From: Gluconobacter cerevisiae
GTDB taxonomy: Bacteria; Pseudomonadota; Alphaproteobacteria; Acetobacterales; Acetobacteraceae
Assembly: GCF_015244675.1 (NCBI RefSeq)
Contig: NZ_JABCQO010000002.1
Span: 124,001 to 188,000 of the forward strand
Length of the DNA: 64,000 nt
Direction of reading: 5' to 3'
In this document: in pieces, positions 49,696-54,296 of the stretch
How the letters are laid out: each line of letters opens with the position of its first letter
Position numbering within the stretch: position 1 is the stretch's first letter
Position numbers and translations under genes: made by a program
The notes under the pieces: generated by a model
Told to the model about the DNA's origin: nothing
The model's input: only the letters and a program-made list of their open reading frames with translations
The model's database searches: none

Positions 49696-51054
49696 ATGGC
49701 CACCAAGAGGTCTCTGTTCGGCACTGACGGCATCCGTGGAACGGCCAATACCGCGCCCATGACGGTTGAGATCGCGCAGAGGCTGGGGCAGGCTGCCGGT
49801 CTGTATTTCATGCGGAGCCAGAACCGTCGGCACAGCGTCGTTCTGGGCAAAGATACGCGCCTTTCGGGCTATATGCTGGAATGTGCTCTGGTTGCAGGTT
49901 TTCTGTCAGCCGGGATGGACGTCATTCTGGTCGGCCCGCTGCCTACACCTGCCATCGCTATGCTGACCCGCTCTCTTCGCGCTGATCTTGGGGTGATGGT
50001 CTCAGCCTCGCATAATCCCTTCACGGATAATGGTATCAAGCTGTTTGGGCCGGACGGCTTCAAGCTTTCAGACGAGGTTGAAAGTGAAATCGAAGACCTG
50101 ATGGCTCAGGATCTTTCGGCCCGACTGGCTTCTCCCGAGAGGATTGGACGGGCTTCACGTCTGACGGATGCGGCAGGTCGTTATATCGAGAACGCAAAGG
50201 CGTCTTTCCCGCGTGGTTTGCGTCTGGACGGTCTGAAGATTGTCATCGATTGCGCCAACGGTTCAGCCTACCGGGTGGCACCCAAGGCGTTGTGGGAGCT
50301 GGGTGCGGAAGTCATTAAGATCGGCTGCGAACCGGATGGTTTGAATATCAATGACGGTGTGGGATCAACCCATCCGGAAACGCTATGTGCGGCAGTTCGG
50401 GAACATGGTGCGGATTTTGGCATTGCTCTGGATGGCGATGCGGACCGCGTTCTGATTGCGGACGAAAATGGCGATCTTGTTGACGGAGACCAGATTATCG
50501 GCCTGATCGCGGCCTTCTGGAAGCAGCATGACCGCTTGCGTGGCAATACGGTGGTTACGACTGTTATGTCCAATATGGGGCTGGAAAAAGCTCTGGCAGA
50601 AAAGGGGCTTGAGCTTCAGCGGACATCGGTTGGCGACCGTTATGTCGTAGAGCGGATGCGCGAGATTGGTGCCAATCTCGGAGGCGAGCAGTCTGGGCAT
50701 ATGGTGTTGTCGGACTATGCCACGACAGGAGATGGTCTGATCGCCGCGTTGCAGGTTCTGGCCGTGTCTGTGGAAACCAAGAAGTCGGCCAGTGAAATCT
50801 GTCGTTTCTTCACGCCCTATCCGCAACTCCTGAAAAACGTCCGTTATTCAGGTGTCAGTCCGATGGGTAGCCCGGACCTTGCCGCGGCAAAAGCCTGGGC
50901 GGATGAACGACTGGCCGGAAGTGGCCGTCTTGTTCTACGCGCCAGTGGAACGGAACCGCTGATCCGTGTCATGGTAGAAGCGGAAGATGAGGCGCTCGTT
51001 CATGAGGTGGTGGATCATGTCTGCGATGTTATTCGCGCCATTGCTCATGTTTGA
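49696..51054 (+). CDS. glmM: Phosphoglucosamine mutase
   Basis: Interconverts glucosamine-6-phosphate and glucosamine-1-phosphate for cell-wall precursor synthesis. The 452-residue protein has FGTDGIRG (8-15), the phosphoserine loop in SASHNP (103-108), the metal loop DGDADR and the sugar-binding GGEQSGH (near 330). Usually follows folP after ftsH in proteobacteria, but folP is absent here. Converges on ctrA. Confidence 0.97.
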
Positions 51055-51095: not shown

Positions 51096-51839
51096 TCAGA
51101 CTGCTGCTTCGAGAACGTGGGCAGGGGTTTTGGGGGCCAGGCTGGCAAGAGCAGCAGTTTCTGCAACATCATCTTCTCGCAGGATGTAGCCACGTCCCCA
51201 GACAGTCGCGATCAGGTTACCCGCACCAACATTCTGCAATTTTCGACGTAGTTTGCAGATAAAGACGTCAATGATCTTCATTTCCGGCTCATCGATGCCA
51301 CCGTAAAGGTGATTGAGAAATGCGTCCTTTGTCAGGACGGACCCTTTACGGATTACGAGCAATTCCAGAATGGCATATTCCTTACCCGTCAGGTGCAGCG
51401 CCGCGCCATCGACGGTAACGTTTTTGCCGTTCAGATCCAGTTCCAGATTACCCACCCTCAGCTTTGGCTCGGCAAATCCCCGCGAACGGCGCATGACGGC
51501 CTGAAGGCGCGCAACGAGTTCGTCTGAATCGTATGGTTTTGTCATGTAATCATCGGCCCCCATGGAGAAGGCGCGGATTTTGGCCTGAGAACGGAGCAGG
51601 GCCGAAAGGACAAGGATCGGCGTCGTGATGCGGGCTGCCCGGACACGCCTGATGACTTCATATCCTTCCAGATCGTTTAGCATCAGTTCGAGCACAACCA
51701 CGTCATAGTCGTAATGACGCAGCATCTCGATGGCCTCTTCGCCAGAGGGCGTATGGTCAACGGTAAAGGACGCGGTACGCAGGGTCTGGGACAACGTGGT
51801 GGCGGCTGACTGATCGCTATCGACAAGAAGGATACGCAT
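51096..51839 (-). CDS. ctrA: CtrA-type response regulator with Glu at the phospho-acceptor site
   Basis: CtrA is the OmpR-family master regulator of cell cycle and flagellar genes in alphaproteobacteria. The 247-residue protein has an N-terminal receiver (1-115) and a C-terminal winged helix with LHLTGKEYAILELL, LTKDAFLNHLYGGIDEPEMKIIDVFICKLRRKL and the TVWGRGYILR ending, nearly identical to Caulobacter CtrA. The receiver is atypical: the position of the phosphorylated Asp51 is Glu (VVVLELMLND; codon GAA checked in the DNA), and the acidic pair before it is D7-S8 rather than E7-D8, removing a Mg ligand. Thr/Ser (ILVLSALL) and Lys (MTKPY) remain. Divergent from fliI. Confidence 0.95.
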   Translation of the reverse strand: MRILLVDSDQSAATTLSQTLRTASFTVDHTPSGEEAIEMLRHYDYDVVVLELMLNDLEGYEVIRRVRAARITTPILVLSALLRSQAKIRAFSMGADDYMTKPYDSDELVARLQAVMRRSRGFAEPKLRVGNLELDLNGKNVTVDGAALHLTGKEYAILELLVIRKGSVLTKDAFLNHLYGGIDEPEMKIIDVFICKLRRKLQNVGAGNLIATVWGRGYILREDDVAETAALASLAPKTPAHVLEAAV

Positions 51840-51951: not shown

Positions 51952-51966
51952 TTAAGTTCGTATTAA
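51952..51966. promoter_or_regulatory. CtrA box (TTAA-N7-TTAA) in the ctrA-fliI intergenic region
   Basis: TTAA at 51952-51955 and TTAA at 51963-51966 are exactly 7 bases apart, the CtrA-binding consensus spacing. It lies 63 bases upstream of fliI and 113 bases upstream of the ctrA start. An inverted repeat GGATTG/CAATCC follows at 51988-52002. Confidence 0.6.
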
Positions 51967-52028: not shown

Positions 52029-53387
52029 ATGAGCAATTACGCCAGACTGCTTGAGATGCTCTCAGACCTCACTTGCGACTGGGTTACGGGAAGCGTGAAA
52101 GACGTCGTTGGACTTTGCATAACCGTCATTGGAATCGAGCGATTCATCACGATTGGAGATAGAGTCGCGATTACAGCGCGCGATGGCCGGGTGGTGCAAT
52201 CTGAGGTTGTGGGGTTTCAGGGTAACCTTGCACGACTGATGTCTTTCGGAGTGCTGGATGGTATTGGTCCGGGTTGTGCGGCACGAGTGCCTCTCAATCG
52301 CCGTGGTGGTGGCTTGGGTATTAATTCGAGCTGGCTTGGACGGGTGGTGGACCCGTTAGGGCAACCGATCGATGGAAAAGGACCTTTACTTCCCTCAATT
52401 TCACGCCAGGCGATTCAGTGTTCGCCACCCAATGCGGCAAGTCGTGCACGGTTGGGGGACCGGATTGATCTCGGGGTGCGGGCTTTGGACGCATTCACAA
52501 CATCGCGTCGTGGTCAGAGGCTTGGACTTTTCGCCGGATCTGGTGTTGGAAAATCGACCCTGCTTTCTATGCTTGCGCGAGGGGCGGAGTGCGATGTTGC
52601 CGTAATTTCGCTCGTGGGTGAGCGTGGGCGTGAGGTCCGTGAGTTCATTGAAGACGATCTTGGCCCTGACGGGCTGGCACGGAGTGTGCTGGTGATTGCA
52701 ACATCGGACTCACCTCCGCTGATGCGTCGTGAAGCGGCGCTGTCTGCCATGGCGATTGCGGAATATTTCCGTGACCAAGGCAAATCGGTTCTGCTTCTGA
52801 TGGACAGCGTAACGCGGTTTTGCATGGCGCTACGAGAAATCGGTCTTTCTGCGGGCGAGCCTCCTGCGACACGTGGTTATCCGCCTTCGGTGTTTGCCGA
52901 ACTCCCTCGACTACTGGAGCGGGCTGGTCCGGGAGACCCCGGTCAGGGGATGATTACGGCTCTCTTTACTGTTCTGGTGGAAGGCGACGATCAGAACGAG
53001 CCAGTTGCGGACGCGGTGCGTGGTATTCTGGATGGCCATATCCTTCTGGATCGCAAGATCGGCGAGCAGGGACGTTATCCCGCAATCGATGTTCTGCGCT
53101 CACTGTCCCGTGCGGTTCCGGGGTGTAATTCCCCTGAGGAAAACACTCTTACTCAACGCGCGCGCGCAGCAATGGCGACCTATCAGCGTATGGCGGATAT
53201 GATCCGGCTTGGGGCTTACAAGCCGGGCACGGATCGTGAGGTTGACGAGGCTATCGCATTGATGCCCAAACTGAACCAGTTTCTGTCTCAGGGGCGCAAC
53301 GAGCGGTCCACACGTGTGGAGGCTTTTGAACAGCTCGCACAGATTATGCAGACGATCCCGCAAACCACTCCTTTGAATGCGGCATGA
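52029..53387 (+). CDS. fliI: Flagellar export ATPase FliI
   Basis: The hexameric ATPase of the flagellar type III export apparatus, related to F1-beta. The 452-residue protein has Walker A GLFAGSGVGKST (near 168-179), the AVISLVGERGREVREFIED segment, MDSVTRFCMALREIGL and PATRGYPPSVFAELPRLLERAG, all diagnostic. Directly upstream of fliJ; the rest of the flagellar cluster is elsewhere. The ribosome binding site is weak. A CtrA box lies in the promoter region. Confidence 0.96.
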   Translation: MSNYARLLEMLSDLTCDWVTGSVKDVVGLCITVIGIERFITIGDRVAITARDGRVVQSEVVGFQGNLARLMSFGVLDGIGPGCAARVPLNRRGGGLGINSSWLGRVVDPLGQPIDGKGPLLPSISRQAIQCSPPNAASRARLGDRIDLGVRALDAFTTSRRGQRLGLFAGSGVGKSTLLSMLARGAECDVAVISLVGERGREVREFIEDDLGPDGLARSVLVIATSDSPPLMRREAALSAMAIAEYFRDQGKSVLLLMDSVTRFCMALREIGLSAGEPPATRGYPPSVFAELPRLLERAGPGDPGQGMITALFTVLVEGDDQNEPVADAVRGILDGHILLDRKIGEQGRYPAIDVLRSLSRAVPGCNSPEENTLTQRARAAMATYQRMADMIRLGAYKPGTDREVDEAIALMPKLNQFLSQGRNERSTRVEAFEQLAQIMQTIPQTTPLNAA

Positions 53388-53400
53388 AGGATTTCTCAGG

Positions 53401-53826
53401 ATGGAACAGTCACCTCTCGACACTCTCATTGCTTTGCGTGAGCAGGAACTTGATCTTGTTGAAAGAAGCTTTGCGGAGGCCGTCGCCCGTGAGACGGCTG
53501 CAGAAGAAAAGCTATCGGCGGCTCAGGAAGAAATTCTGAGTGAACAGCGGATCGCTTCCAGCCCCACAGCCGGGGACGGTGCGGTGGAAGCCTTCAGTCG
53601 CTGGCTTCCTGCCGGGCGGCAGGCTGTTGCCGAAGCGCAGGCACGCTGCCGCGAAGCTGCGCTGGATCGTGAAACCGTGCGGTCGGCACTGATTATCGCG
53701 AGAGCTGCCATGGAAGCCGTCAAAACTTTGAAGGAAGAGCGGCAGGAAGAAGAGCAGTTGGCGGAGCTCAAAAAAGAACAGAATGCGCTGGATGAACTTG
53801 CCATTCGTCAGTTCAGTCAGTCCTGA
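53401..53826 (+). CDS. fliJ: FliJ-like flagellar export chaperone
   Basis: A 141-residue helical coiled-coil protein starting MEQSPLDTLIALREQELDLV, with heptad-rich charged stretches over most of its length (about 5-130). Size, coiled-coil character and position right behind fliI identify it as FliJ, which moves between export gate and ATPase. AAGGA lies 9 bases before the ATG at 53401; an earlier ATG at 53377 overlaps fliI. Its 3' end overlaps the convergent next gene by 10 bases. Confidence 0.75.
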   Translation: MEQSPLDTLIALREQELDLVERSFAEAVARETAAEEKLSAAQEEILSEQRIASSPTAGDGAVEAFSRWLPAGRQAVAEAQARCREAALDRETVRSALIIARAAMEAVKTLKEERQEEEQLAELKKEQNALDELAIRQFSQS

Positions 53827-54239
53827 GCAACGTCCTGGCTGCGAAGCGCGGTTTCAATCTGCAGGGCTGTGCCGATCAGGGCGCATGCCACGGGATGGGT
53901 GCTGTCGCGAACAAAGGCCAGAACGAGATCGGGATCGCTGGGAAAGAGATCGGTTTGTAGCGTAGTAACAGACGTCATTTCTCCCGTATGGGCCGCGTTC
54001 TGTGCCGCGTGGGCCAAAATGCGTGAGACGGCTTTTTCGAGCGCTGGAAGAAGCACAATGTGAGGCGCGCTATGGTCTGAGGCATGTGTCGCTGCGAGTT
54101 CATCCCAGCCTGCGCGGGTGACGAAGGCAGGAATACCATCAGGTGGCGTCTCGCGCTCGGCGCGCAGAAGTGCGCCAGATTGGGCCATGCCAAGAATATC
54201 CAGTGCAGGGAGTAGCGTGGGGTCGAGTTTAATGGGCAT
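53817..54239 (-). CDS. Hypothetical protein convergent with fliJ
   Basis: A 140-residue soluble protein from the chosen ATG at 54239 (MPIKLDPTLLPALDILGMA). The sequence is moderately conserved-looking but matches no family I know; ends QIETALRSQDVAQD. The frame extends to 54275, but that start lies inside the loop of a strong hairpin (54262-54296), so it is less likely. Possibly flagellum-linked by position only. Confidence 0.6.
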   Translation of the reverse strand: MPIKLDPTLLPALDILGMAQSGALLRAERETPPDGIPAFVTRAGWDELAATHASDHSAPHIVLLPALEKAVSRILAHAAQNAAHTGEMTSVTTLQTDLFPSDPDLVLAFVRDSTHPVACALIGTALQIETALRSQDVAQD

Positions 54240-54261
54240 CCGGATCTTTTTCGCAGACTGA

Positions 54262-54296
54262 AGCGGCCATGTCATCTTGCGGGAGACATGGCCGCT
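54262..54296. terminator. 12-bp hairpin terminator between two leftward genes
   Basis: AGCGGCCATGTC (54262-54273) pairs perfectly with 54285-54296 across an 11-base loop; GTTTCTTATT follows on the plus strand. It sits directly after the stop of the leftward exported-protein gene. Confidence 0.55.

Follow-up and report, generated by a model that had tools for sequence, protein, structure and literature searches.

In Alphaproteobacteria, CtrA is the textbook case of a master regulator that is phosphorylated, and artificial alleles with D51E or without the degron are in standard use; the C-terminal Ala-Ala of the protein is its ClpXP signal in Caulobacter. One laboratory allele of Caulobacter, CtrA(D51E)delta3-omega, is described as stable and active in the part of PMC5189948 available to us. 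According to the accessible text of PMC4395418, Glu is the commonest residue at the Asp site of aspartate-less receivers (26%), which in general keep the first acid and the Lys and lose the second acid. The same source indicates that ChxR stays active when its Glu is changed to Asp or Ala, and that a Glu substitution alone often fails to activate receivers. Overexpression in Rhodobacter capsulatus gave slightly less gene transfer with D51E and more with D51A (PMC6363796, available part), so D51E does not act as a simple on form in every species. That phosphorelay members are missing from Rhodospirillales has been noted before, in the available parts of PMC2877005 and PMC8116508. In the openly licensed literature, we found no report of E51 in acetic acid bacteria (AAB) and almost nothing on CtrA in these industrial organisms. 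AAB is used here as our own label for a tree clade of 34 rows and its genus codes, assigned from likeness to named loci.

The window analyzed here is a stretch of 64,000 nucleotides of Gluconobacter cerevisiae (contig NZ_JABCQO010000002.1, positions 124,001 to 188,000). It contains a ctrA gene (Table 1) whose product has Response_reg (residues 3-112) and Trans_reg_C (146-220) Pfam domains and whose nearest named relative is from Gluconobacter kondonii (96%). Its top NCBIfam model was CtrA NF045991, with 327.1 bits against a curated cut-off of 350 bits; this miss tells little about CtrA orthology, the name of the model pointing to Rhodobacterales. A second, canonical CtrA in the same genome was ruled out, the next-best of four own-genome matches (E <= 1e-30) being 36% identical. 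By eye, the window CtrA was also the only receiver with Glu at the acceptor position among the 24 receiver domains of the genome.

Table 1. Features of the ctrA locus, with positions counted from the first letter of the window
Feature	Position	Strand	Basis
ctrA, OmpR/PhoB-type response regulator, 247 aa, ATG start, putatively phosphorylation-independent form	51096..51839	-	ORF and Pfam
Codon 51, GAA (Glu), phospho-acceptor position	51687..51689	-	Codon reading and family alignment
Codons 7-8, Asp-Ser, acidic pair minus second acid	51816..51821	-	Codon reading and family alignment
Ser79, conserved T/S of receiver switch; 1 change in 34 AAB rows	51603..51605	-	
Tyr98, conserved Y/F of receiver switch; 1 change in 34 AAB rows	51546..51548	-	
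Lys101, conserved receiver Lys, retained in the window; K or R in 31/34 AAB rows	51537..51539	-	
C-terminal Ala-Ala-Val of CtrA	51099..51107	-	
CtrA box TTAA-N7-TTAA (predicted site), ctrA-fliI intergenic, -127 from ctrA ATG	51952..51966	+	Motif scan
fliI, divergent from ctrA, frequent conserved neighbour	52029..53387	+	
fliJ	53377..53826	+	
glmM-like phosphoglucomutase gene, other side of ctrA	49696..51054	+	

An earlier note on this DNA had described Glu in place of the phosphorylated Asp51 of CtrA, and the codon reading confirmed it. Sequencing error at this codon was ruled out, as each of the 18 genomes read from this genus code, including that of the window, had E51 (GAA or GAG). The acidic pair of CheY numbering corresponds to CtrA residues 7-8; the lost acid is therefore residue 8, which is Asp in most D51 relatives and Ser here. 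Thus, the missing acid reported in the earlier note stands, with the numbering corrected, and residues 7-9 read D-S-D, with D9 retained. One further difference was seen two residues after the conserved Lys, at residue 103 (51531-51533, minus strand), where Phe is replaced by Tyr in the window and by His in Neokomagataea; the available part of PMC12632262 ties this Lys+2 residue to the balance between active and inactive states.

Glu51 is natural and clade-wide, and the arrangement is not special to the window. Among 34 Acetobacteraceae-like loci read at this site (L094 does not cover it and is not counted), 23 had Glu, 4 Ala and 7 Asp. We then read one CtrA from each of 159 Acetobacteraceae genomes and found Asp in 86, Glu in 57, Ala in 3, His, Asn and Arg in 2 each, and Ser and Thr in 1 each, with 5 unreadable; the set was assembled to cover many genus codes, with atypical forms over-represented, and the fractions are not frequencies. 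E51 occurred in 19 genus codes, mainly AAB, and its named carriers include Gluconobacter, Neokomagataea, Asaia, Acidomonas, Tanticharoenia, Brytella, Acetobacter musti and Bombella mellum. Ala51, a natural non-phosphorylatable version of CtrA, was present in some Bombella and Parasaccharibacter (L084, L095 and L097) and in G290, G085 and G021. An acidic residue 8 was present in 76 of the 86 D51 genomes versus 6 of the 57 E51 genomes. The five CtrAs unreadable at first were those of G122, of G081, G298 and G052 (broken or truncated receivers) and of G105 (contig end); on re-reading, G122 (L177) proved to have END with D51, i.e. N8, alongside ChpT and so departs from the pattern.

Several other atypical forms were observed. 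G100 and G164 (genus code g89) have E51 (EHD) outside the AAB clade, and ChpT was found in neither. A CtrA-like protein of an uncultured alphaproteobacterium (L091) combines ESD with Ser at 51. The broken or truncated receivers lie in the CtrA frames L093 (Bombella dulcis) and L296, both of G052, L435 (G298) and L293 (G081), and may be assembly errors or decaying genes. In addition, G053 has five CtrA-like matches at E <= 1e-44, a possible CtrA expansion.

Distribution of phosphorelay partners was then assessed. The Pfam ChpT family (PF10090) was detected in 235 of 397 family genomes and was not found in the window genome. Genomes with D51 and acid 8 had clear matches (below about 1e-6) in 62 of 76 cases, weak matches in 6 and none in 8, and E51 genomes had three weak matches among 57 and otherwise none, 4 of the 57 lying outside the Pfam search. 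A family profile built from 14 Acetobacteraceae ChpT sequences and run on 80 genomes gave near full-length matches in 12 (E 3e-40 to 3e-61); the other 68 yielded nothing or partial matches no better than E 1.7e-11, almost all of the latter lying in long frames, which we take to be kinases. By this profile, ChpT was absent from all 48 AAB genomes searched, and the best match in the window genome was only E 0.0018, in a 681-aa kinase frame. Weak Pfam matches in G012, G021, G029 and G210 corresponded to partial profile matches in frames of 487-1347 aa; this re-check leaves out some others, e.g., G343, G377 and G237. The ChpT searches as a whole leave out G004, G007 and G010, and G008 is covered by the profile only. 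Because ChpT is absent from the window genome and from 48/48 AAB, CtrA cannot be fed by the classical relay in these organisms. The correspondence between ChpT and D51 is incomplete: G081 has ChpT and an unreadable, apparently broken CtrA receiver, and G033, G118, G050, G059 and G061 lack ChpT yet retain D51 and acidic residue 8.

Of the other relay and proteolysis genes, DivK had no match at E <= 1e-18 in the window genome. It reached this threshold in 11 of 72 genomes, no AAB among them, with 39% identity at best; DivK thus seems to be missing family-wide and does not explain E51. None of the six single-receiver proteins of the window genome is a CpdR, the highest score being 61.7 bits (cut-off 180). 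RcdA had no match in any of 56 genomes, with Caulobacter as positive control. The two most CckA-like kinases of the window genome, one of them truncated at the locus end to 885 of 1216 aa, scored 304 and 294 bits on the CckA model (cut-off 1000), and four candidates from D51 genomes, at 438-490 bits, were also below this cut-off; with the catalytic domain of Caulobacter CckA as query, no separable orthologue was found even in D51 genomes. Thus, of the relay genes named in the earlier note, chpT, divK and cpdR are absent from the window genome and, for that genome, cckA is probably absent as well. For its Rhodospirillales cluster, PMC2877005 (available part) speaks of genomes that have cckA but no chpT, unlike what is seen in the window genome. 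Continued phosphorylation of CtrA here, whether on a different residue or from an unrelated kinase or a small-molecule donor, is very hard to credit; D7, D9 and K101 remain, but the window CtrA has lost the acceptor Asp and one of the paired acids, and ChpT is absent.

Order of these changes was examined on a tree of FtsH, a single gene independent of ctrA, with 67 rows (G112 left out) and bootstrap values not fully settled; in nine rows (G184, G254, G026, G077, G116, G036, G048, G065 and G091) the ChpT state comes from Pfam alone. All 19 rows with ChpT had D51 with acid 8, and 45 of the 48 rows without ChpT were altered at 51 or 8. By parsimony, ChpT was lost at the base of a 42-row clade (support 100/99) and in four other places, and E51 arose at the base of the 34-row AAB subclade (99/90) inside it. 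Three E51 CtrAs (G312, G399 and G029) have an intact EDD pocket. Five basal rows without ChpT retain D51; acid 8 is lost in four of them (G075, G090, G268 and G150), and G033 keeps both D51 and acid 8. G100, apart on the tree, has an independent E51 and its own separate ChpT loss, and the very divergent G060 (genus code g49) also has E51. In this comparison, ChpT was lost first and D51 was then replaced by E51, most simply while the EDD pocket was still intact; the acid at residue 8 appears, as a trend, to have been lost repeatedly after E51. Since the pocket changes are nested with ChpT loss on a single tree, only one independent pair lies on well-supported branches; this allows no valid association test, and we claim an order and not a statistic.

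These data suggest that the window CtrA is a phosphorylation-independent pseudo-receiver form, founded by a phosphomimetic D51E after loss of ChpT, and we give this reading a probability of roughly 0.58. Its main rival, which we consider rather unlikely, is neutral decay: after ChpT loss, the receiver would have become a passive linker, Glu51 would be the commonest replacement of Asp and no mimic, and DNA would be bound through the output domain and dimer contacts alone. The high share of Glu among aspartate-less receivers and the activity of ChxR with Asp or Ala (PMC4395418, available part) fit such decay, but E51 most simply preceded pocket decay in AAB and reappeared in G100 following another, separate loss of ChpT.

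Substitution patterns bear on both readings. In the 34 AAB rows, changes per site amounted to 8.13 in the receiver and 3.76 in the DNA-binding domain, in agreement with the earlier note, which had described the latter domain as very well conserved; the corresponding values for the 19 ChpT+ rows were 3.57 and 2.57, a difference that favors decay of the receiver. Site 51 itself changed 8 times in AAB, about the mean for receiver sites, an argument against strong selection for Glu across the whole clade. Some AAB have Ala, Asp, His, Asn or Thr in its place, so Glu is not indispensable; like the broken receivers, these residues also fit decay. On the other hand, the two switch residues in Table 1 are nearly invariant, as is Pro102 (also 1 change), and the modeled receiver superposes on 4qpj_C, a CtrA receiver bound to phosphotransferase, at 1.0 A over 118 columns, both of which argue against neutral decay. 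In this model, pLDDT by ten-residue block was 85-97 for residues 1-110, with the arrangement of domains uncertain at a pTM of 0.52.

The neighborhood of ctrA was examined as well. The box in Table 1 is the only TTAA-N7-TTAA in the window versus 0.06 expected, and the named Gluconobacter loci also have such a box, allowing for one mismatch, near -127 to -129, a recurrence that has no chance control. TTAA-N7-TTAAC was not enriched in the window genome (7 versus 10 for the reversed control), and no CcrM sites were found in the ctrA-fliI intergenic region. On the other side, glmM flanks ctrA in most AAB, at the place where the fetched D51 regions carry a che-chpT cluster. In five such D51 regions, which were fetched because chpT was near, chpT closes a chemotaxis cluster beside ctrA, and in G029 (E51, EDD) the cluster is still near ctrA with no chpT at its end; che gene names were assigned by us from sequence and order. 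A 152-aa ORF adjoining fliJ (53817-54275, minus strand) matched no Pfam family and has homologues near ctrA in G045 and G188.

All 13 AAB tree rows in which fliI adjoins ctrA had E51, as did 13 of the 21 rows without it, the other 8 having Asp, Ala, His, Thr or Asn. This difference gave a Fisher p of 0.011, which ignores relatedness, and a branch-length p of 0.045, which is crude and assumes loss-only fliI with 8 changes; absence of fliI beside ctrA does not mean its absence from the genome. Outside the AAB clade, G021 has A51 although fliI adjoins ctrA. Retention of Glu in all 13 rows with fliI argues against neutral decay. As a third possibility, the pseudo-receiver might still be a switch, set by a partner protein or small ligand and not by phosphate. 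Conservation of the receiver fold and switch residues would agree with this, and Rem-MirA of Agrobacterium is a precedent in the available part of PMC12632262, but no obvious partner gene lies beside ctrA, where the usual AAB neighbors are glmM and, in many, fliI; we consider this reading improbable.

The C-terminal end was readable in 90 genomes. Ala-Ala was present in 17 of 27 CtrAs with D51 and acid 8, 4 of 6 with E51 and the acid, 3 of 7 with D51 and no acid, 1 of 41 with E51 and no acid, 1 of 8 with other residues at 51 and the single one unreadable at 51. It is therefore missing from 40 of 41 E51 CtrAs with a broken pocket, but also from 10 of 27 D51 CtrAs. The losses fall in clusters on the tree, and small hydrophobic ends persist in many E51 CtrAs, so greater stability of these proteins is putative; the AAV end of the window CtrA may still be recognized by ClpXP. 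Proteolysis, which the earlier note had proposed as a substitute control, is unlikely to operate in the Caulobacter manner, given the absence of RcdA in 56/56 genomes, the lack of CpdR in the window genome and these Ala-Ala losses.

Under the preferred reading of a phosphorylation-independent CtrA, events could have proceeded as follows. Comparison of genomes shows that ChpT was lost first and that Asp51 was then exchanged for Glu in the ancestor of AAB, most simply before the EDD pocket had changed. By analogy with D-to-E mutants of Caulobacter CtrA and other regulators, Glu51 may fix the receiver in an on-like state without phosphate. Once phosphorylation had ceased, the pocket would lose its second acid, and most lineages the Ala-Ala end as well, as the trend across genomes suggests. 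CtrA would thus act as a constitutive transcription factor at least on the ctrA-fliI promoter, its dose being set by its own expression; constitutive activity, dosage control and a flagellar role are all putative for the window protein. In lineages without fliI beside ctrA, the receiver tends to drift further: residue 51 is found as Ala, Asp, His, Asn or Thr, or the receiver is broken. The idea of a phosphomimetic CtrA free of CckA-ChpT, put forward in the earlier note, holds for the natural Glu51 and the absent ChpT, but a plain mimic leaves the AAB with these other residues unexplained. A broader version, which we hold tentatively and rate below even odds, is that a whole free-living clade converged stepwise on a near equivalent of CtrA(D51E)delta3-omega through loss of ChpT, then D51E in a pocket still intact, and then loss of the second pocket acid and usually of Ala-Ala. 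An always-on regulator would have been kept for the flagellar promoter, with E51 selected while fliI lies beside ctrA and released when it is gone. If true, a phospho-switched master regulator of the cell cycle has been turned into an always-on regulator for a flagellar promoter.

Compared with CtrA of Caulobacter crescentus and of D51 Acetobacteraceae, the window protein shares the order of domains, the conserved DNA-binding domain, a candidate TTAA-N7-TTAA box and the often adjacent fliI. In contrast, it has E51 and Ser8 and no C-terminal Ala-Ala, and its genome is without ChpT, DivK, CpdR and RcdA and probably without CckA. It resembles CtrA(D51E)delta3-omega in sequence features only, namely Glu at 51 and a changed C-terminal end, but the window form is natural, occurs in viable free-living bacteria and also lacks the second pocket acid. 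With such a natural near-equivalent of an artificial allele, AAB make it possible to ask which purpose CtrA phosphorylation and clearance serve, and what of CtrA function survives once both are changed. Reduced CtrA networks of Rhodospirillales are treated as presence or absence of genes in the available parts of PMC2877005 and PMC8116508, where no change at residue 51 is mentioned. Like ChxR of Chlamydia and other Glu pseudo-receivers, the window CtrA has no acceptor Asp but Glu at this site, keeps D7 and K101 and has lost the acid at residue 8. Unlike for ChxR-type pseudo-receivers, canonical CtrA and ChpT persist in other genera of Acetobacteraceae, letting the steps be ordered, and this family thus offers an ordered example of a response regulator turning into a pseudo-receiver.
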